A stretch of 20,273 bases of DNA, from contig AJFK01000351.1 of the NCBI GenBank assembly GCA_000467715.1, forward strand, positions 1 to 20,273. The letters are read 5' to 3'. This DNA comes from Hysterium pulicare CBS 123377. Its lineage: Eukaryota > Ascomycota > Dothideomycetes > Hysteriales > Hysteriaceae. Both the position numbers and the translations under genes were made by a program. Positions 341 to 17,355 of the stretch are shown here, piece after piece; position 1 is the stretch's first letter, and each line of letters opens with the position of its first letter. The notes under the pieces are model-generated. The model was not told the DNA's origin, ran no database searches, and saw only the letters and a list, made by a program, of their open reading frames with translations.

Positions 341-760
341 GATCTTACTGGGATTGAACTTCCTGCCTCGTCTGCCACCGTGCCAGATGCCTAGGCAACT
401 TGTGATAGATGTTCATTGATTAGTATTGCGGGATGGTTGACGTTGAGGAGACCTTTGAGGATGCGTGAGACATGTCCGGCTATGATTTACCGGGGCGTTG
501 TTGCCTTTCTGGAGCACCCCTCGTTCCCCAGATCAAAGCAACCTCGGCTCCGGACCTCTCCACGGTCATGGCTGGGTTATGGCTTGCCCAACTTATATCC
601 GACGACAACCTCGATTCATGATGCTTATATCAATCGTCGTTTTCTCTTGCCATTTGCCTGCCGGCTGTCACAAGTTCTTGACTCTCTTGCTCATCAGTAT
701 TCAACTGCAACCCAGACAAGAATATCTCTCGAAGGGACCCTCTGTCCAAATACCGTCAAG
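341..760 (+). other. Promoter and 5' leader region of the thiolase gene
   Basis: This stretch holds no convincing gene of its own. The thiolase frame is open upstream to an ATG at 416, but the residues it would add do not resemble the family's N-terminus, so I treat 416-760 as leader or promoter. It contains one CCTCGG hexamer, listed separately. Confidence 0.5.
542..547 (+). promoter_or_regulatory. Candidate FarA/FarB (fatty-acid response) binding site CCTCGG
   Basis: The hexamer CCTCGG lies 214 bp upstream of the thiolase start. In Aspergillus, CCTCGG is the known core of the FarA/FarB zinc-cluster regulators that switch on peroxisomal fatty-acid catabolism genes. A thiolase is a sensible target. 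Only one copy is seen, and one hexamer can easily occur by chance in a 400 bp promoter. Confidence 0.35.
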
Positions 761-2192
761 ATGGTGAAGAAAGCAGTGCAGCCAGTATATGTGCTGGGTG
801 TCGGAATGACCAAATTCATCAAGCCTCGAGGCAAGGTCGACTATCCGGAACTGGGTTTCGAAGCAGGTGTTAAAGCTATGCTCGATGCCCACATCAACTA
901 TGACGATGTCGACCAAGGTGTAGCATGCTTCTGCTATGGTGACAGCACCAGTGGCCAGCGTGTTTTCTACCAATTTGGCATGACAGGAATACCGATCTAC
1001 AATGTGAACAACAACTGTTCGACAGGGTCGACTGGTCTATATATGGGAAGGAATATGATCGCGCACGGAGCGGCAGATTGTGTGCTAGTTGTTGGATTCG
1101 AGAAGATGTTTCCTGGAAGCTTGCAGACCTTCTTCCAGGACCGAGCAAACCCCACTGGCACAACGAGCCTGATGATGAAGGAGACGAGGGGCATTACCAA
1201 GGCACCTGGCGCTGCTCAGATGTTCGGTAATGCCGGCAGGGAACACATGGAGAAGTGAGTGTTAATGAGTTGTCACGGTGCTCTTAGACACAAAACTAAT
1301 GCTGAACAGGTACGGCTCCAAGCTAGAGGACTTCGCTGAGATTGCGCGTATCAACCATGCGCACTCCAAGAACAACCCTTACTCCCAGTTCCAAGATGAA
1401 TATACGCTGGAGCAGATCATGAAAGCACCTATGATTCACGAGCCGCTCACTAAACTACAATGCTGCCCTACTTCAGATGGTAGCGCCGCAGCGGTTCTCG
1501 TGTCCCAAGAGTTCCTCGATGCTCGACCGGAACTTAAGGATCAGGCTATTCTCATTGCTGGCCAATGCCTGGCCACTGATAAGCCTGAGCTTTTCAACCG
1601 CAGTGCCATCGAGTTGGTCGGCTACACTATGTCGGAGCTTGCGGCGAAGACTGCTCTCGCTGAGGCAAATACCTCCCCAGATGACGTGAAAGTTTGCGAA
1701 CTTCATGACTGCTTCTCCGCGAATGAAATGGTCACAATTGAAGCACTTGGCCTGGCGCCCAAAGGTAAGGCTCACGAGCTTATCCGTAAAGGGGGCATCA
1801 CCTATGGTGGAAAGGTTGTTATCAACCCATCTGGAGGTCTGATCAGCAAGGGACACCCTCTTGGTGCAACTGGACTCGCCCAATGCGCAGAATTGGTATG
1901 GCACATGCGTGGCTGGGCCAACAACCGCCAGGTCGAAGGCACAACGGTGGCATTGCAACACAACCTTGGCCTCGGTGGTGCCGTGGTCTGCACAGTATAC
2001 AAGAGAGCTGACGGGAAACCCGCTCAAACCCAATCCAATGACGTCGTTGCAAAGAAGACCGGTCTTGGATATAATCCTGCTGTTTCTGCCAAGGGATTCA
2101 CGAAAGCTCAAGTTGATTCAGTCAGATCAAAGAAGGCTAGGAGTGAGTGGGCTCTGCAAGATACTGAGCAGAAAGTTGAAGCGAGATTTTAA
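761..2192 (+). CDS. Peroxisomal SCPx-type thiolase (sterol carrier protein x-like, without SCP2 domain)
   Basis: The model is join(761..1254, 1310..2192), giving 458 residues. The 55-nt intron has a GTGAGT donor, a CTAAT-like branch and a CAG acceptor; splicing rebuilds an AAG lysine codon. SCPx thiolases cleave 3-ketoacyl-CoA with CoA in peroxisomal beta-oxidation. The start fits the family: GVGMTKF lies at residues 13-19, as in animal SCPx. NNNCSTGSTG carries the nucleophilic Cys86, HDCFSANE carries His297 and Cys299, and GHPLGATG carries His347. QHNLGLGGA near residue 395 is another family motif. The animal protein has about 120 extra residues forming the SCP2 lipid-transfer domain; here the protein stops about 50 residues after the thiolase core. 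The last three residues, ARF, resemble a weak PTS1 peroxisomal signal. Thiolase type is clear; exact chain-length specificity cannot be read. Confidence 0.93.
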
Positions 2193-2575
2193 ATTGGTCA
2201 AAAGTCTGCATCTTGGAGTTTGGGGGAGTGCATGACTGAAACCCGCTTGTATTTAATAGGTAGTCCTCATGAACAAATTGCAATGTGAATATTAGTTGCT
2301 CTTGTCATAAGGATCATGCCAGTCGCTATGATATATTTAGGAACTAAGTAGCAGAACGACAACTGAAATGGAGCGGTTGTAGATGGGCATGGTTGATATT
2401 TGGTTGACCCCTTGAAGGCGATAGGGCTGAAGAATTGACCCTTGTCGGAGGGCGACGCTAGAAAGTTCATCGAAAAAAGTACTCGGTACGCAACACCAAC
2501 GCAACTCACAGCTTTATTCCTGTCTCTCTCCTTGACTGGTGATAGACTACCTATACTCACTAGCATGTCTCTCTA
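2193..2575 (+). other. Intergenic: thiolase 3' flank and kinase promoter
   Basis: This 383-bp spacer lies between two tandem genes. It is AT-rich near 2250-2350, as expected for a 3' UTR and poly(A) region, and becomes pyrimidine-rich just before the downstream ATG (about 2510-2575). I see no ORF, RNA gene or repeat in it. Confidence 0.6.
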
Positions 2576-4460
2576 ATGTCAGGTTCCAACTTCTTGTCCC
2601 CGTTCTTGCGGAGAACTGCTCCTTGGACCTGCCGTGCTTGTCTCCGAAAAGAAACCGTCCGTCACCAACGATCCGGTTTTGCTACAGGCCAAAGTCCCAA
2701 GACTGCCTCGAGGAAAACTAGACGGAGGAAAATATTGTTAGCATCCTCAGGATTCGGGCTTACTGCAGGAGCAGTTGCGCTTAGCGATGATGCGAAACAC
2801 GCGGTGACGGCCGTCCAGAGATCAGGGAGGGTCGTGTCTACTCTTTTTCTCAATATTAACGAGTATGTTATCCCCCAAACTTCAGAGATATATGCTGATT
2901 GGAATCTGCTCTCCAGCTATAGAACCACGCTCAAACATGAGCATGCGAATCAAGAAGACTATGATGCCCTATTGCGAGCTTGTCATAAGAGATGCGCAGA
3001 ACGGACCTTAGTAACGCTTGAGAAGAATGGCTCTATATTCATCAAACTAGGGCAGCATCTTAGCAGCTTGACCTACCTCCTTCCCAGCGAGTGGTGCGAT
3101 ACCTTCGTTCCGCTACAAGACAGGTGTCCCGTATCTTCGTACGAGTCAATACGCAAGATGGTAGAGCAGGACACGGGGCACAGTCTCTCAGACTACTTTT
3201 CTGAGTTTGAGCAAGCGCCGATTGGAGCAGCCTCTCTGGCTCAGGTCCACCGGGCTGTGATCAAGGATACTGGACAGAAAGTCGCTGTGAAGGTACAGCA
3301 CCCGGCCTTGGACGAATGGGCGCGTTTGGATCTTGCGCTCACTAGTTTTACTTTCGCGACTGTAAAGAGATGGTTTCCAGAATATGACTTGACCTGGCTG
3401 TCGGATGAAATGCAGATATCGTTGCCACAGGAGCTAGACTTCTTCCAAGAGGGCCAAAATGCCATGCGTGCTCGGGAATATTTCGAAAAGGTACGAGATG
3501 CACCTGTGATTATTCCAAAGGTAATGTGGGCAAAACGTCGAATCTTGGTGATGGATTATGTGTCCGGCCACAGACCGGACGATCTGGGGTATCTCGATTC
3601 CCATCAGATTGACCGGGATGAAGTTTCAGCTGCTCTGGCGCGAATCTTCAATGAGATGATCTTTGGGACGAACGCTCCCCTACATTGTGATCCTCATGGT
3701 GGCAATATTGCTATCAGACACAATCCAACACGGCGTGGAAAGGGAAATTTTGACGTTATCATGTACGATCATGGCCTCTACCGTGATATTCCGCTACCTC
3801 TACGGCGCTCCTATGCTAAGCTCTGGCTCGCTGTGTTGGACGCAGATGAACCAAAGATGCGTAAATATGCCCATGAGGTTGCCGGCATTGGCGACGAACA
3901 TTTCGCACTCTTTGCAAGCGCTATTACGGGCAGGGACTATGATGTGATCAAACAAGATGTGTCTAAGCCTCGGAGTAAGCAAGAGAAGGATACTATATCA
4001 GATGCACTGGGAGAGGGCATGCTAGCAGAGCTTGTGCAGCTGCTGGGTCAGGTGCCGAGAGTTATCTTGTTAATCCTCAAAACGAAGTACGTCATTCCGA
4101 TCGAAAGTATGTCTTATTTGATACTTTGCTAACCGTGTTCCTAGTGATCTAAGTAAGTTGTACACGCTTGAGAAGATCGGTTCTATTGGCTGAGTCTAAC
4201 ACCCAACAGCACGCTCTCTCGACGAGAACCTTCATACTCGTCAAGGCCCTGCACGTACTTTTCTCATTCTGGCTCACTACGCCTCTCGAACGGTCTACGA
4301 GGAGCAGAAAGAAAATCTGAATAGTAGCCTCCTGTGGCCCTCGAGTCTTCTCGCCTTTCTCCGAGCATGGGCTTCGCATACGAGGGTTGAGCTGAAGCTC
4401 AGCTTCTACGAACGCTGGCTTGAAGTACGGGCCCTTTTGGGCATGGACCCAGTGGTCTGA
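2576..4460 (+). CDS. mcp2: Mitochondrial ABC1/UbiB-family atypical kinase, Mcp2/ADCK1 type
   Basis: The model is join(2576..4086, 4145..4152, 4210..4460), giving 589 residues, close to yeast Mcp2. The Arg-rich, acid-poor first 50 residues resemble a mitochondrial presequence, followed by a hydrophobic segment (about 53-70) that could anchor the protein in the inner membrane. UbiB-family features appear in order: KLGQ (KxGQ, 157-160), the Ala-rich loop GAASLAQVHRA (217-227) that replaces a P-loop, the VAVKVQHP lysine (Lys239), PQELDF (284-289), HCDPHGGN (370-377) and YDHG (DFG equivalent, 397-400). Mcp2/ADCK1 proteins affect mitochondrial lipid homeostasis and CoQ-related processes; the substrate is unknown. 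Without splicing the frame stops at 4130-4132. With the two introns (58 and 57 nt) and an 8-nt exon, the C-terminus continues with the ADCK1-like run NDLTRSLDENLHTRQG. The orthologue name rests on remembered similarity. Confidence 0.92.
4145..4152 (+). other. 8-nt microexon of the Mcp2-like gene
   Basis: The bases TGATCTAA lie between a TAG acceptor (4143-4144) and a GTAAGT donor (4153-4158). Spliced in, they complete an Asn codon, encode Asp and Leu, and give the first base of a Thr codon. This rebuilds KTNDLTRSLDE, a run conserved in ADCK1 relatives. Skipping the exon changes the frame and leads to an early stop within exon 3. Confidence 0.85.
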
Positions 4461-5743
4461 ACATCGGACCTGCCATCCGGAGCTGTCCGTTTTATAAATA
4501 TAATGTACATTATATATTGGGGTCATAAGTATTGACGCGTTACTGGCGCACCGTGAAGAATTGATGCGTGTCTTGCGCGCACACGGGCTTGTCAGCTGTG
4601 GCTGTGCTTATAGAAGGTATCAGTAACGTAGTTGGCCTAAAGTCCGCTCTAGGGTGCCCATATCTGCTTAGTACCTAATCCTACTGAGGCAATCAGTCCG
4701 ATTTGTGCATTCTTGGAATCGATAATCACTATAGTCACTAACTTCATGGACTGGAGATCCTGCCATAGTTCAAGATACGACTTCTGAAACAGGTACCCAA
4801 TACCACACCAAAAGGTTCAAGGTGACTGTACTCTTATAGGCTTGCACGGATTCCAAAGTAGTCATAGAAATTTGTATGCACAGGCACGCTTTTCGATGTG
4901 CAACGAATCGTGATGCTGTATTGAATACCATCGTGGATTGACTCGAGGCTAATAATTCTACAAATTGTAAAGCCCTTTACTGGAATAGTTGAAACTACGC
5001 TGAGGGTCAGCAAAGCCGTTCACTCTTGAAAGCTGGTCGCTATAATGAATCCAGGAAGATGGAATATCCGGAAACGCTATTCTAATAAGCTATGAAGTGT
5101 CGAAGACGCTTACCGTTAGACGCTGTCGTGTGCTTTGACATCATTACTGCTGTCTACGATGTTAGGACGTTGGAAGGGGCATACGGCGTAGCAGAAAGGG
5201 CCATAGATTCATTCAATTGCGATTGAGTCTGTTTGCTAATCAATCCACTCTCCAGCCTACATATGACCTAGATGTGAGGGTTTATCGACTCGATCATGGC
5301 TAGTGCATGAACACCAGCTTCACTGCAACAGACAAGCAACAAGCGGGGCAGGCTCCGCCAAAGATAGAACCGAAGGCGGCAATCTTCCTCACCCACCGAC
5401 ACCAACCCTTCTCCACCACAAGCCCTGCTTTTGCACGAACTCTTTGCTGCTGGTGTTCGGAAGTCGTCGCGTTTTTGCAATCGGTGACGACCCTCTAGCT
5501 CGAATCCAGCAAGGGCTTTTCCGCCTTTGTCGACGGTGAGCGGGCCGTCTCTTGATCCGCGCCTCTCTGCCTGCACAGCCCTCCTCACCCTAGACTCTCG
5601 TTCACGAGTATCCTCGACCCTGCTTTACTCTCGTGCAATACATCTCACACGCTGGAAGATCTGGACCTCGAGTCTGAAGGGGCTTTGAAAGCTCATATTC
5701 AGACCATCGTCGTTGAATCTTAGCGTCATAGTCCATCAAAACC
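4461..5743 (+). other. Intergenic, about 1.3 kb: kinase 3' UTR, then ubiquitin-ligase promoter and leader
   Basis: I see no gene here on either strand. The first 60 bases hold an AT-rich palindrome, listed separately. From about 5570 to 5640 the + strand is pyrimidine-rich, typical of a fungal core promoter or 5' leader for the ligase starting at 5744. The short open frames at 5268-5588 overlap on both strands and resemble no family. Confidence 0.5.
4498..4515 (+). promoter_or_regulatory. 18-bp perfect palindrome with Puf4-like UGUACAUUA in the kinase 3' UTR
   Basis: ATATAATGTACATTATAT is its own reverse complement and starts 38 bases after the kinase stop. On the RNA strand it contains UGUACAUUA, which fits the Puf4 consensus UGUAHAHUA, and it is flanked by UAUAUA-like poly(A) efficiency elements. 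The role is inferred; an AT-rich 3' end signal alone would also explain it. Confidence 0.4.
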
Positions 5744-8683
<2,940 letters not shown>

Positions 8684-9935
8684 GGGGAGGGCCCGTTACA
8701 TCTGTTGTCATTTTTACCATTTTTGTACGGCGACGAGGTAGATAGTGGGCCTAACGACCCGTGTACAAACACATGCAGGACAGCATTCGAAGAAAAGGGT
8801 GTGGGGATTCTTGCCACTGTTTCATGTTTCTTGCGATGGGTCAAAGATTTTGGTATATTTTACGGGTCGGTTCCAGTTAATGCAGCCTGCCGAAGCCTCG
8901 TTAGGATGAGGCGTTTTTGGGAATTATTGCAGTTGGCGTGGAGCGAGTAGTGGATAAGTAGATGAATAATTATCATAGTCCACAAGTAATGGTCCACGGA
9001 GAGACGGTGAATAGGTAGATGTTTGCTTCGTGACAAGCAGAGCTGCTGAAGCTGGAGATCAGGAGGTGAGTATTGCTTTTCATGCCCCTGTATGGAAAAT
9101 TGGGAGCGGATCGCTCTTACATCTTCACAAACAGCCTGGGACGCAGGGAAAAGCTTCTCGTGTCTCCCTCAGCGCCATTTGGCAACGTTCATCTCGCCAA
9201 TGATGCCTGCGTGGAGATGTGCTTGCCGAACGAGGCACGCTAAGAAAAGCCCCAGCTGGAGATCACTGGGGTCAGCCAATGGTATCGACCCACGCCCGAA
9301 ATGCATTAACTTAGTAAGCAGACCAAGGAGACCCTGTGCTTTCTCCTCGATGTTAATCTTCTCTATGCTGTGCGAGCACCCTTCGTCTTGCACGCCTTCG
9401 GAAGAAGAGAGACACAGATTGCGTGTTCTGCAGCTTTCTGTATGGCAAAGAATGATGGACGCAAGGAGCCATTCTGCGGAGGCAAGGGTTTTGGAGGGTG
9501 CGGGGGCTAATAATAGGAATCTCGACGCACTTCAGGGCCAACGACTCGCCATTTTCGGCTTGGTGTGAATATTGATTCGAAGCTCCCATGCACAATTATT
9601 CCACGATTCAATCGGCACGGTGGAGAAGCACGGTCCCAGGCGTTCCATGGACACGAGAGATGAGGCAGCTGGCTGGACAGAAATATAAGTCCGAGATCCC
9701 CATGTCTGCGCGTTGCTTCCGATTTTCTTCGCGTCCCCTTCTCGTCACCATACCAAAGATTCTTCATTCCACTTGTAATAAACCCATCACTCGTTCTGGG
9801 ATTCGTCTTAATCAAAACAAACTCTACCCCATATTCTTGCAAGCTTTGATATCACACTCTCGTCTTTTTACAAAGCATTTAGCATTCCCATCTTCTGCAT
9901 TCTTACTACATACATCTAATACTACATAATTCAAA
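8684..9935 (+). other. Intergenic, about 1.25 kb: ligase 3' flank and GPI-protein promoter
   Basis: There is no supported gene. A 158-codon open frame at 9092-9568 and an opposing one at 9353-9595 show no recognisable family features. ATATAAG at 9683-9689 is a possible TATA element about 250 bp before the next start. The 100 bases before 9936 are pyrimidine-rich and end in CAAAATG, typical of a well-expressed fungal gene. Confidence 0.5.
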
Positions 9936-10626
9936 ATGCGAGTCTCCGCTGTCGTTATCCTCGCTGTCGCTGGCCTTGCCGCCGCCCAAACTGCTTCTGC
10001 TCCTGCTGCACAGTCGACCTGCCAGGCCGAGAAGTGAGTCTTCCCCTGATTGCCTGTTGAGTTATTAATTTACCTTTCGCAGCATTGTCCAGGCATGCAT
10101 TGGAACTATCCAGCCGCAGATCAACTCCTGTGGTGCCAATGACTGGGTCTGCCTTTGCAACAACTACCAGAACCTCCTGACGTACGTCCTGACCTCTGTT
10201 CCAAACACCATCTACCGGCCTTGTACTGGCCTTATGTCCCAATGACTGACTCGTGGACTTCAATAGCTGCTACAACAACTGCCCTGGTGACATCGAAAGG
10301 ACTACCGTCCAGAATCAGGTCACATCCTACTGCAATGCCGCCGCTCCGTAAGGCACCTTACACCCACCATATATACACCTCATCTAATGACTTGCAGTAT
10401 CCTGTCTGCTAGTTTAGCCTCGGCCGCTTCAGCAGGCCACACCATGACTGGCTCAGTATCAGGGCCAGCATCGACAACAGTGGCCACAGCCACCTCCGCG
10501 GCCGCTTCCAAGTCATCGGGCACTGCATCGGCGGCCAGCGCTTCCAGCACTGGCGCTGCAGGTTCGGTCGTTGCTCCCGTGAGCGGCGTTTTGGCTCTCG
10601 TCTTCGGTCTTGCCGGACTCCTGTGA
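9936..10626 (+). CDS. Secreted GPI-anchored, serine/alanine-rich protein with a CFEM-like 8-cysteine domain
   Basis: The model is join(9936..10033, 10083..10181, 10267..10347, 10398..10626), giving 168 residues; introns are 49, 85 and 50 nt. Residues 1-17 form a signal peptide (cleavage likely after LAAA). A compact domain follows with eight cysteines at 29, 38, 49, 56, 58, 67, 71 and 88, including DWVCLCNNY and CYNNCPGD. Residues about 98-150 are rich in Ser, Thr, Ala and Gly, a likely O-glycosylated stalk. The C-terminus is a hydrophobic tail (151-168) after small residues, as for GPI attachment. The protein is expected at the plasma membrane or cell wall. The C-x-C pair, the Asp before it and the x16 spacing to the last Cys recall CFEM haem-binding proteins, but C1-C2 spacing (8) differs. 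Function is unproven; a wall-structural role is equally possible. Confidence 0.88.
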
Positions 10627-11790: not shown

Positions 11791-14537
11791 ATGGCGAGCG
11801 GAAACCATGAAATACCCACACGAGGGCCGGTAGTGTTAGCCGTCACCACGGCTATGCTCGTGTGCTCGACTGTGTTCGTTGTTCTGCGCCTGATATCGAG
11901 AATTGGGATTGTTCAAAGAATCGGCTGGGACGATTATGCTATGATACTAGCGTGGGTGAGTTAATAACGAAAATATGGCCTGTCTGCTCTGGGACGTGAA
12001 CTCATGGAACACACAGTTCTTCGCGTTCGGAACATCATTTGCAATATGCTATGGCACGTCGGTAGGCCTAGGTCGACATGAAGAGGATGTTCCCTCAGCA
12101 TGGGATCCGTCGTTGAAGAAGTCTGAATATACCTTCTCGGTTCTTTATGTAGGTATCCGGTTTCGCCGCATATTTGAGAAGACATACTGAGACCTTTTAG
12201 AATCCGGCCTTGATGGCTACTAAGACTTCCATCCTGATCTTCTACCTCACACTATCGAAGACGCAGAAAATATTTCGCTGGGCCACCATTGCGACACTTG
12301 CCGTTGTCAATATCGGCGGGCTCGCCTTGACTTTCCTGAACATTTTCCAATGTCGACCATTCCATGCGGCCTTCTTAAATCCAGTCCCAGATTCGGCGAA
12401 ATGTACGGACATCGTTGCTCTCTACCTCTCATCGGCGCCATTGAATATTATTACGGACTTGGCAATATTGTTCCTACCTATGCCTATCTTAACGAGTATG
12501 CGTCTACCAAAGAAACAGAAAATAATTCTTGTGGTTACCTTCGGATTTGGCGTCTTTATTGCAGTTGTGGATGTCGTGCGAACAGCATACCTCCAATCCG
12601 CCGCAAAGACCCATCTTCAAGATATTCAACAGTACAGTGAATCAGCCGCAGGTGGGTCGAGAAACGCTGAATTGAACGACTTCTCCTGGTATGCTTCGCT
12701 ATCATTCTTATGGTCAGCCATTGAGATCAATGTCGGCATCATGTGCGCTTGTGTACCGGGCTTGAAGCCATTGGTATCCCGATTCATACCTCATTGGATA
12801 CGGGACTCCACTTATACGGAAAAAACGATGACGAGTGGCAGTCTGGGATATCATCCTGATATGCTGAACGCTGAGCGGCACGATTCGCTTCCAAAGGCTG
12901 CACCAACAATAACTTCCCCTCCGCCTGCTGCCCAAACTGGGCCTGAGGCCGGCATTGACATGATGGACTTCCTGACCACTCCGGATATGAACGAGATGCC
13001 TCAAGCTCATCAACCACATACTAATCCTACCTCTGCGACGCAAGGGACAGCTCTGCCCCGTCGTAAATCTAGCACTTTCTTCGACTTTGTAGACGTTGAG
13101 AGAAAAAAGAACATCACAATCATGAGCAACAGAGAATCCGTATTCCCATTCATGATGGTGACCGTTCTGTTCTTCATCTGGGGTTTTGCATATGGGTTGT
13201 TAGATACTCTGAATGCCCAGTTTCAAACCGTTGCGGGAATGTCAAATAGTCAGACCGTTGGTATCCACACAGCATACTTTGTGGGTTACATTGTGAGCCC
13301 CTTAACTTTCGGACGTTTGGTCTTTAATAAATGGGGCTTCAAAGCATGTTACACGGTCGGACTCATCATCTACGCTTGCGGTACGCTTGTTTTCTGGCCA
13401 TCTGCTGTTCTCACTTCCTTTCCTGCGTTTCTGGTTTCAAATTTTATCGTCGGTCTTGGCCTCTCAACTTTGGAGATCTCAGCCAACCCCTTCATCACTC
13501 TCTGTGGCCCTCCTGAATGGGGTGAGGTTCGATTAAACCTCTCACAGGGCATTCAGGCCATCGGAACTATCACTTCACCTCTTCTCGCCAAGAAAGTCCT
13601 TTTCAAAGCCTCGGCTAATTCCCTCATCGATGTGCAATGGACCTACCTGGGCATCTCCTTTTTCACTATCGTTCTCGCAATCGTCTACTATTACGTCCCA
13701 CTTCCTGAGGCCACAGACGATGAGCTGGAAGAACTTTCCATCCGCCTCGGTACTCGATCCCACGCAAAGTTTCTCAACACTAAAGTTATCTGGATCACGC
13801 TCGCTTTCGGCATTTTCTCACAGTTCTGCTATGTCGGCGGGCAGGAATCCGTCAATACTACCTTCTCTAGATACCTTGCCAGCGTTCACCCCGGACTCAA
13901 TGCTGTCAATTACCAAGCCATCGGACACACAGCATTTGCTTTATCCCGCTTCTTCGCCGCTGGTCTAGGAATTTTCTTCAAACCACGCTATCTCCTGCTC
14001 TTCTTCTATGCTGGCGCCATAGCCTTTGCAGCCGCTGCCATGAATGGCCATGGCGCCCAGCCAGTTACCATGGTTATGATGGTCTATCTCTTTGAAGGCC
14101 CTATATTCTCCCTCATCTTCGCACAATCCATAAGAGGGTTAGGAAAGCATACCAAAGAAGCAAGCGCGCTTCTGACTGCGGCCATCGGTGGTGGAGGAGC
14201 CATTTTCCCGCCTATCTTATATGGAGCACAACAAGCAAAGAACGTGCAGTATGCGTACTGTGTTGTTGTCGTCGCTTTTGCTTTTGGCATGTCGATGGCG
14301 ATCTGGCTGAACATAAGCTCGAAGGCGATGAAGATCTGTGACCCGGTCAAGGAAGGGCAAGCGGCCGAGAGGGACGAAGAAGAGGGAGAAAGCCAACCTC
14401 AAGAGAGCAAGGCTCGGTGGTCGAGTCTTAGTGAGAGTGTTAAAAAGAGGCTACATCGGGATAAGGACTCGGACGTACCTCAGGTGGAACACCGGGAAAG
14501 GAGAAGCTGGCCTCCTGAGCAAGGGGAGCGGAGCTGA
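11791..14537 (+). CDS. Fusion protein: PTH11/SAT4-type fungal rhodopsin domain joined to an L-fucose-permease-like (FHS) MFS transporter
   Basis: The model is join(11791..11955, 12017..12148, 12201..14537), giving 877 residues; both introns (61 and 52 nt) are phase 0. The N-terminal part (about 12-295) is a seven-helix fungal rhodopsin-like domain, with RLISRI, the GWDDYAM loop, NPALMATKTSIL and an extracellular CRPFHAAF cysteine pairing plausibly with Cys in KCTD. A polar Pro-rich linker (about 296-408) holds RRKS at 386-389. The C-terminal part (about 409-812) is a 12-helix FHS-family major facilitator: GLLDTLN carries Asp434 and GLGLSTLEISANPF carries Glu524, equivalent to E. coli FucP Asp46 and Glu135 for proton coupling. 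An acidic/basic cytosolic tail follows (813-877). Both domains are in one uninterrupted 2.3-kb exon, so the fusion does not depend on intron calls. The ligand and substrate (perhaps a sugar) are inferred only. Confidence 0.88.
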
Positions 14538-15327
14538 CATTTCCATACTGTAGATGGACTCAGGTCATATGGGTTTATGTGGGATGAGTTATGAGCAGCA
14601 TTTGGCGTTCCTGGGGTATTCCTGCATCATATCAAGGGCGTTTTTGCTGGAAGGGATTTTCGAAAGGGGATGGTTTATATGCGAGATCCGCATCGTGTTT
14701 TCGGTTTTCCGTGAGCGGCTTGATTCGACTTTCGAATATGATCATGAAGTGCATAGCATTAGCGCTGCAAGAGCACCGTTTAAATGATGGAAGAATATTT
14801 CCAATTGTATAAAAGGCAAGAAACTTGTTCACCAATTCATACATCAAGAATTGACATCTTTCAAGGTCATGAATAATGTGTGCACAGTGATAAATGTGAC
14901 ATTTCGGACTTACACACCTGTATCTCAGATCGGTGTATGCTGGAGTCTGCAAAGACCTGTAACAAACGTAATTCTTCTTCAAATGCAGTGCGCACAATGT
15001 CTCGTGATGTGATGAAAAGTCGGTGAAGGGACCCCGGAGGTAACACCAATTATCTGTCTTCACGATTTATATTAGACGAACATGCTTTCTGATCACAATT
15101 AGGCGGAAACCATTCTCATTTTTCTAAGGGTGTGAATTCTGTTCGAGATGCTTATGCTGAACTTGAAGGGGAGGTTCACGTGCTTTCGTGCCTTCGCGTC
15201 AGCACCTTGGTTCCTACCTTTTTGACAAACCGACCACTTCCACCTTCGCGTCTACACATGCTCAGAACCTCATATCGTCAACTAAAACTTCCTCGCTCAA
15301 TTATGATATTTAGCGACAAACATCAAC
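14538..15327 (+). other. Intergenic, about 790 bp: fusion-gene 3' flank and DNA-repair gene promoter
   Basis: No gene is supported. A TATAAAA box lies at 14808-14814, and a CACGTG E-box at 15177-15182, about 145 bp before the next start codon. A 143-codon open frame on the - strand (14632-15063) has no family resemblance. The last 60 bases before 15328 are rich in C, T and A, as in a fungal 5' leader. Confidence 0.5.
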
Positions 15328-17355
15328 ATGAGTTCTAATCGTCCTACTTTGATAAAAAAGAGACCAAGCACGGACGACGCAGGTAGAGGTGTGTCTCCTC
15401 CGCCAGTGAAACGGCGACAGCAGTCTACGACAACGAGTAGGTCAAAGCAAGATATTCATCAACAGATTTCGAGAAAAGCTAACCCTACTCAAGATAAGGC
15501 TGTTTCAAACTTTTTCACGCCCATATCGAAGAAAGAGAAGGAGCTGGAGACAATGTCTTGGCGGATTGTGAACGATAGCCTTCTTATTGGTCGCTATCAG
15601 ATTCCCTCAGCAACCCAGGCGTTCAAGTCTGGTGCCCAACGTCAAAAGATAGCAGCCTTCGACTTTGTAAGATATAATGTCCAACGTGCCTCTGCAGCAT
15701 TGATTGCGTTTTGTGGTTGTCTGACAACGTATGCTGTAGGACTCTACTTTGATCACGTCTGCTTCAGGTAATCGTTTTGGCCGTGATGGAGGCGACTGGA
15801 AATGGTGGAACGGCATAGTTCCTGGGACGCTAAGAAGCCTTCATGAGGATGGGTATGTTTCATTTCCACATTGCTAGGGCTAAGATAATGGCTGAATGTG
15901 TCCAGATATCTCGTTGCGGTACTGAGCAACCAAGGAGGGATCAGTTTGAAGCCTGATGCTAAAACTTTGAAGAGCGACCAAAAGCGAGTGGCTGATTTCA
16001 AAGGCAAAGTCTCGGCCGTACTTACCCAGCTTGACCTCCCATTATCTGTCTATGCCGCGACTGCACGGGACCAGTACCGCAAACCAAGGGTTGGAATGTG
16101 GCAGGAACTCCTCGAAGATCATGACTTGGAGTCGGAAGACTCTGTGGACCTGCAGAACTCCTTTTTTGTTGGAGATGCGGGTGGCCGAGAGGCAGTCGCT
16201 GCTCAAAAAGTACCCAAGGATCATTCGTGCGTTGACAGGTATGAATGACATGGGTACTTACTCTGCCAAGTTCGCTGACGGCTGAGCAGAGATTTTGCTG
16301 CTAACAATGGCATACGTTTTCTTACACCTGAGGAGTACTTCTTAAAACAAGAACCTAGAACATTCGTCAGGGACTTCGATCCAGCTGTTTTCATTGGAGA
16401 GACGGCTGGGAAATCAATATCTGCAGGTACGTTCTAGGATTGTCAGCCACCCGGAGATGGGTTCTTATCTCAGATATCTGACGGTAGCATCAGCAGCGCC
16501 GACTTCATTTGCAAAAGTCAACCCAATTGACATTGTACTATTTTGTGGTTGCCCAGGGGCGGGCAAATCGTCTTTCTATTGGCGACATTTGCAATCACTG
16601 GCGTATGTCCGAGTGAATCAAGACATCCTAAAAACAGTATGTGTTGTAGAACCACCCTCCCAGCATGTGCTGTATCACTTGTTCCCCGCTCCATGAGTAA
16701 CAATTCCGAAACAGCGCGAGAAGTGTCTGAAATCAGCATCAAATTTCCTAGACGAAGGAACGTCCGTTGTTGTTGGTATGTGGCGTCACATGGTTTATTG
16801 GAACTAGATGGGCATTAACGATTGTGGTCCCTGGTAGATAACACCAACGCCGATGCGGAGACGAGAGCACACTGGGTCAATCTGGCCAAGAAGCACGATG
16901 TACCGATCCGCTGTGTGCATTTTACAGCATCACCTAAATTATGCGAGCATAATGATATCGTCCGAGCCTTAAATGTTGGGCCTGAAGTAAGATTCCCAAC
17001 ATTATCATTTCAGTGCGGGGAAACACGTCCGTCCAATTGCACTCAATCTGCAGACGAAGCAGCAGCTCACTAATGGACTTACTACTGGACGGCATGGTGG
17101 AGAAAGCTAACTGCCCGTTAGACGAACCCTGAGAAACGAACTATCTTGCCTAAAATTGCGTTTACGGGGTTCGCGTCGAGATATCGGGAACCAACGTTGG
17201 ATGAAGGTTTCCAGGACATTACAAAGATTGACTTCGTGGTGAGTCGCATTGCTCGTGATGGCAGCAACCGTTATTTCATTAGCTTACCGGTGTGTACCAT
17301 GTAGTTCGAGGGTAGCGATGAACAGCGGATCTTGTGGAGTAAGTTCTGGGTGTGA
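15328..17355 (+). CDS. pnk1: Polynucleotide kinase 3'-phosphatase (PNKP/Pnk1), DNA strand-break end processing
   Basis: The exons are 15328-15666, 15740-15852, 15906-16238, 16290-16426, 16494-16636, 16715-16775, 16838-16986, 17122-17238 and 17305-17355, giving 480 residues. The enzyme removes 3'-phosphates and phosphorylates 5'-OH DNA ends for base-excision and strand-break repair in the nucleus. The N-terminus is basic (KRPS, VKRRQ), a likely nuclear signal, and has no FHA domain. The phosphatase (about 105-300) carries DFDST (nucleophile Asp112, acid Asp114), VLSNQGG, DQYRKPRVGMW and FFVGDAGGR. The kinase (about 312-480) carries the Walker A GCPGAGKSS (Lys332), RVNQDILKTREKC, VVDNTNADAETR and the terminal FEGSDEQRILWSKFWV. 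Most splice sites are supported by continuity of family motifs. The fifth exon could start at 16488, 16494 or 16497, all in frame. Confidence 0.92.

Follow-up and report, generated by a model that had tools for sequence, protein, structure and literature searches.

The locus described here raises the question of whether a seven-helix receptor-like domain and a sugar transporter are encoded by a single gene in Hysterium pulicare CBS 123377 and, if so, what such a protein might do. The window, by which we mean the whole stretch of DNA that was analyzed, comprises 20,273 bases. We re-derived the gene as three exons, and this model yielded the 877 residues plus stop codon that had been claimed in the original prediction (Table 1). 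Exon 3 (12201-14537) forms a single open frame of 778 codons without interruption, in agreement with the stop-free exon of approximately 2.3 kb proposed earlier; its start, which had been placed at helices 4-5 of the receptor, had to be moved, as the exon begins at receptor helix 3 with the stretch NPALMATKTSILIFYL. From among 510 possible frame-keeping combinations, splice sites were selected by visual inspection, with consensus intron ends and the restoration of receptor motifs as criteria. A listing of longest frames, in which the fusion gene stood at 778 and the other PF20684 matches listed at no more than 516, was not used for comparison because four stretches gave 215, 167, 341 and 232 aa, below the listed values.

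Table 1 Features of the receptor-transporter fusion gene, in positions of the window
Feature	Position	Strand	Evidence
Fusion gene with two introns, coding for 877 aa and stop	11791..14537	+	splicing, open frame
Exon 1: N-terminus, receptor helix 1 to the start of helix 2 (WDDY stretch)	11791..11955	+	splicing
Intron 1, GTGAGT...CAG	11956..12016	+	splicing
Exon 2: receptor helix 2 (remainder) and the loop after it	12017..12148	+	splicing
Intron 2, GTAGGT...TAG	12149..12200	+	splicing
Exon 3, part with receptor helices 3-7 (PF20684)	12201..12785	+	Pfam match
Linker of 112 codons, hydrophilic, Pro/Ser/Thr-rich, open, no GTRNGT donor	12786..13121	+	frame, codon score, donor scan
Two in-frame ATG codons within the linker, possible starts of a transporter-only form	12960..12965	+	sequence
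In-frame ATG, 8 residues ahead of the first transporter hydropathy peak	13122..13124	+	sequence, hydropathy
FHS/FucP-type major facilitator; Asp434 = FucP Asp46, Glu524 = FucP Glu135	13122..14309	+	Pfam, PDB and NCBIfam matches
C-terminal tail of about 75 aa, charged, with the stop	14310..14537	+	open frame

The Fung_rhodopsin profile (Pfam PF20684) was matched over its entire length, positions 1-237 of 237, within the first 412 aa of the spliced product (E=1.1e-61; 208.9 bits against a cut-off of 27), which bears out the assignment of this half to receptor-like domains of the PTH11/SAT4 type. Seven hydropathy peaks were observed between residues 14 and 284. The loops expected to lie inside contain 3, 3 and 4 lysines plus arginines and 2, 0 and 0 acidic residues, compared with 3, 2 and 3 and with 5, 2 and 4, respectively, in the loops expected outside, a distribution that weakly favors an N-out/C-in orientation. 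The complete profile, the seven peaks and the WDDY, TKxSILxFY and LPMPIL-type stretches, which we take to be typical of the PTH11/SAT4 class, are features that the fusion protein shares with class XIV fungal GPCR-like proteins; unlike these, it carries a tail, presumably cytoplasmic, that continues into a transporter. According to the available portions of the respective reports, the PTH11 class is a large receptor-like class of filamentous fungi, most fungal GPCRs being orphans (PMC13308352), has been reported from Pezizomycotina only (PMC12842992, PMC5526305), and includes a CFEM domain in 15% of its members in a survey of 20 genomes (PMC5526305). No CFEM domain was found in the receptor half of the fusion protein. 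The upstream neighbor on the same strand (9930-10626) appears to encode a secreted protein of small size that is probably GPI-anchored and whose cysteines follow a CFEM-like pattern. For this protein, the CFEM profile gave 18.5 bits with one exon piece and 15.3 with a provisional join, at a cut-off of 22. Some PTH11 receptors carry CFEM at their N-terminus, and the location of a CFEM-like gene beside a CFEM-less receptor may or may not be more than chance.

In the C-terminal half, Pfam identified an MFS_1 match in the exon-3 protein (E=1.8e-14), and a phmmer search of the transporter half against PDB sequences retrieved two chains of E. coli FucP (3o7q; best E=3.7e-38) over FucP residues 21-424, the remaining three matches being chance-like (E 0.3 to 1.8). 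In the FucP alignment, Asp434 and Glu524 correspond to Asp46 and Glu135, residues that presumably serve proton symport, so that the claim of a retained acidic pair was confirmed. Gln159 of FucP is also kept, and Asn162 is replaced by Gln; the same Gln is present in the paralogs on contigs C9 and C90, and the paralog on C339 retains Asn. The description of this half as a FucP-like sugar transporter, however, stood at the level of the family and not at that of the substrate: the best NCBIfam match, the L-fucose equivalog TIGR00885, reached 152.4 bits, below its cut-off of 280.4, and fucose is thus not the obvious substrate. By homology, we therefore regard the transporter half as a member of the FHS family (TC 2.A.1.7), and not demonstrably as an L-fucose permease; it resembles FucP in the equivalents of Asp46, Glu135 and Gln159 and departs from it in the Gln at the Asn162 position and in the 7TM domain that precedes it. 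RhtA of Aspergillus niger, compared here by description and not by sequence, is likewise a fungal FHS-family member, an L-rhamnose transporter with measured sugar uptake, studied in the monosaccharide-transporter-null yeast EBY.VW4000 (PMC5161314, available portion); a 7TM domain such as that of the fused transporter is not mentioned for RhtA in that portion of the report.

The same genome contains four clear FHS loci, the fusion included, and one weak match on contig C296 (E=7.5e-4). The three other clear loci, on C9, C90 and C339, look stand-alone: an in-frame stop lies 28, 40 and 3 codons, respectively, upstream of the presumed ATG, with the reservation that these starts were chosen by eye and that an upstream intron is possible. 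The listed PF20684 matches include none on these three contigs. The earlier statement that the two families are normally separate proteins can hence be upheld within this genome, where three of the four clear FHS loci appear to stand alone, and its extension to fungi at large lies beyond this comparison. Over the transporter core, the C9, C90 and C339 copies share 41, 54 and 45% identity with the fused copy; their frames are broken in an intron-like manner within the transporter, a region that the fused copy reads through without a break. Moreover, the stretch FEGPIFSLIFAQSIRGLGKHTKEASALLTAAIGGGGAIFPP (14091-14213) in the C-terminal half of the fused transporter takes the place of FESxIFPTIxxLxxRGLGxHTKRG in C9 and C339, and LEISANPF stands against their LETxANPY. 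These differences point to a distinct FHS subgroup that may also have a different substrate. PF20684 was matched 159 times in the genome, a number that counts exon pieces and hence corresponds to fewer genes, and that is as expected for a filamentous ascomycete.

The linker between the two halves, which agrees with the claimed Pro-rich character in being hydrophilic and rich in Pro, Ser and Thr, contains no stop codon in the frame shared by both domains, against 7 and 8 in the other two forward frames. Assuming independent bases, the chance that 112 codons of this base composition would remain open was 0.007. To score its codon usage, we sampled 20 stretches of 10 kb each from this genome and took their long open frames as the reference; the first set comprised 26 frames with 17,757 codons, and for the final score only frames bounded on either side by a stop, or by the start of the stretch, were admitted. 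Coding chunks were scored with their own frame excluded, and the wrong-frame controls were free of stops. The codon score of the linker (0.086) equaled the coding mean (0.086), with lower values in 74 of the 142 coding chunks, and was attained by 3 of the 68 controls read in a wrong but open frame; two stretches of the window that are presumably intergenic scored negative in all of their 12 readings. A measure restricted to synonymous codon bias, which is weak throughout this genome and separates the two classes poorly, gave -0.012 for the linker and lent no support to its being coding, relative to means of 0.035 for coding chunks and 0.001 for open wrong frames; 18 of 142 coding chunks fell below the linker (a fraction of 0.127), and 39 of 62 wrong-frame controls were at or above it.

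An intron within the linker was considered and rejected. No GTRNGT splice donor was found in 12700-13200, and the weak GT...YAG pairs in this interval, twelve in number and spaced 45-250 bases, four of them frame-keeping and eight frame-shifting, lack any of seven common donor hexamers; they would at most allow an intron with non-consensus ends, which we hold to be unlikely. AATAAA is likewise absent from the + strand of the linker; on this strand of the gene it occurs once, within the transporter at 13326. The last part of the linker is similar to the N-terminal tail of the C9 paralog (score 37 versus a shuffled mean of 22.7; P=0.0045 with 2000 shuffles, uncorrected for three tests), and the same procedure revealed no resemblance to the tails of C339 and C90 (P 0.43 and 0.20). 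This weakly suggests that part of the linker is an old transporter tail, which would fit the loss of a stop and a start between adjacent genes.

Together, the completeness of both halves, the coding-like character of the linker by one of two codon measures, the missing GTRNGT donor and the retention of the acidic pair support one fused, intact reading frame, from which a single polypeptide is likely produced, judging by the DNA. The hydropathy profile of the whole protein displays seven peaks, a gap of 130 residues and eleven further peaks. Of the 19 helices originally predicted, these peaks are thus directly visible, and we infer the twelfth MFS helix from the FucP alignment. The C-terminus of class XIV receptors and the N-terminus of MFS transporters are both expected in the cytoplasm, so that a linker of ~120 residues can join the two domains without an additional helix.

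In the scheme that we propose, a gene for a PTH11-class 7TM receptor-like protein became fused with one for an FHS-type sugar/proton symporter, and the product would be one membrane protein of 877 residues and about 19 helices, with an estimated size of roughly 95 kDa and presumably located in the plasma membrane. Its transporter half would use the Asp434/Glu524 pair to import a sugar, probably a monosaccharide or deoxy-sugar, along with protons; the 7TM half, being attached to it, would hold a sensor beside the importer at a fixed 1:1 ratio. The state of the receptor or the occupancy of the transporter might further be relayed via the shared cytoplasmic linker. We consider the chances slightly better than even that the locus encodes one chain with two working halves. 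The more specific reading is that of a receptor-transporter hybrid, in which an extracellular cue or the state of transport would be sensed by the PTH11-class 7TM domain, and this domain would control the symporter in the same chain or report on it; we put it forward by analogy and as a tentative possibility. The transceptor of the original prediction, a protein that both transports and signals, is likewise a hypothesis, with the animal protein GPR155/LYCHOS as its precedent.

The strongest rival to two working halves is a genuine fusion, neutral or recent, in which one half is idle, the 7TM domain being a mere passenger or membrane-targeting tether of what is otherwise a plain transporter. 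Given the size of the PF20684 family in this genome, with its 159 matches by exon pieces, accidental fusions are to be expected, and the stand-alone appearance of the remaining three clear FHS loci points the same way. However, the receptor profile is matched from end to end and the acidic pair is kept; both halves are intact, a state in which one would not expect to find a passenger of long standing, and we regard an idle half as rather unlikely. Distinctly less probable, in our estimate, are two overlapping products, namely the long frame and a transporter whose expression begins at a promoter and start codon inside the gene. The three in-frame ATGs at 12960, 12963 and 13122 would permit such a transporter, and the first two would place about 61 residues ahead of its first helix, compared with the 24 to 56 with which the stand-alone FHS paralogs appear to start; the weak likeness of the linker end to the C9 tail is also compatible with it. 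A start at 13122, by contrast, leaves just 8 residues before helix 1, neither a GTRNGT donor in 12700-13200 nor an AATAAA on the + strand of the linker is present, and the halves are not separated by a stop, so that the long product would still read into the transporter.

The remaining alternative is that an assembly or frame error has united two separate genes. The locus is known from a single assembly, in which the window is the whole of a short contig (C273). Nevertheless, the window contains no N, and a join by chance would have to preserve the frame as well as an open linker, the probability being 0.007 for the linker alone; the linker in the shared frame is, in addition, coding-like by codon score. 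A second copy of the junction was sought and discarded as a candidate: the junction DNA matched once in the 37.2-Mb assembly, and that match was the window itself. We accordingly consider an error of this kind very improbable.

A precedent for such a design comes from animals. In GPR155/LYCHOS, a PIN-type transporter and a 7TM domain form a single protein, in which, as proposed in the available portions of two reports, transport and sensing are linked (PMC11574030, PMC12716839). The fusion protein shares with it the presence of both domains in one chain, although the order is reversed, the transporter of LYCHOS coming first and the 7TM domain second; LYCHOS, moreover, has 17 helices and a DEP domain and is lysosomal. 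In the PDB sequence searches, GPR155 was absent from the matches both of the transporter half (E up to 10) and of receptor helices 3-7 (E up to 1), and the parts of the two proteins thus look unrelated. As an analogy, LYCHOS lends some plausibility to the coupling of sensing and transport, and the hybrid, in that reading, might be its counterpart of independent origin and opposite domain order, a parallel that we draw with reserve and hold to be doubtful. Were it to hold, the gene would represent a second, independently built case of the transporter-plus-7TM design known from LYCHOS. A PTH11-class member covalently tied to a transporter with measurable cargo would, furthermore, offer a way into the class, as the cargo suggests the cue.

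Among the papers listed on fungal GPCRs, FHS transporters and LYCHOS, no title or opening of an abstract reported a PTH11/SAT4-FHS fusion, nor is one mentioned in the available portions of papers dealing with GPCRs or with sugar uptake in fungi. In a scan with the exon-3 protein, 7 viral and 29 prokaryotic contig stretches fit the pattern, and in a scan with the transporter-core alignment 17 prokaryotic and 7 viral contig stretches were matched; none was related. Both scans covered viral and prokaryotic contigs, and their bearing on domain order is thus confined to these and does not extend to fungi. Such fused architectures may well exist in protein databases or in related fungi.

The remaining neighbors, in 395-8569 and 15307-17073, look ordinary. 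They include a thiolase-type profile match in 1269-2192, an ABC1-type kinase in 2564-4132 and a C2-WW-HECT ubiquitin ligase in 5724-8569, which we take to be similar to Rsp5/Nedd4. Downstream, Pfam gave nothing for 15325-15768 and an AAA_33 P-loop match in 16346-16690, which may belong to a polynucleotide kinase. The last 25 bases of the contig (20249-20273) are all C, possibly an artifact of sequencing or of the assembly end.
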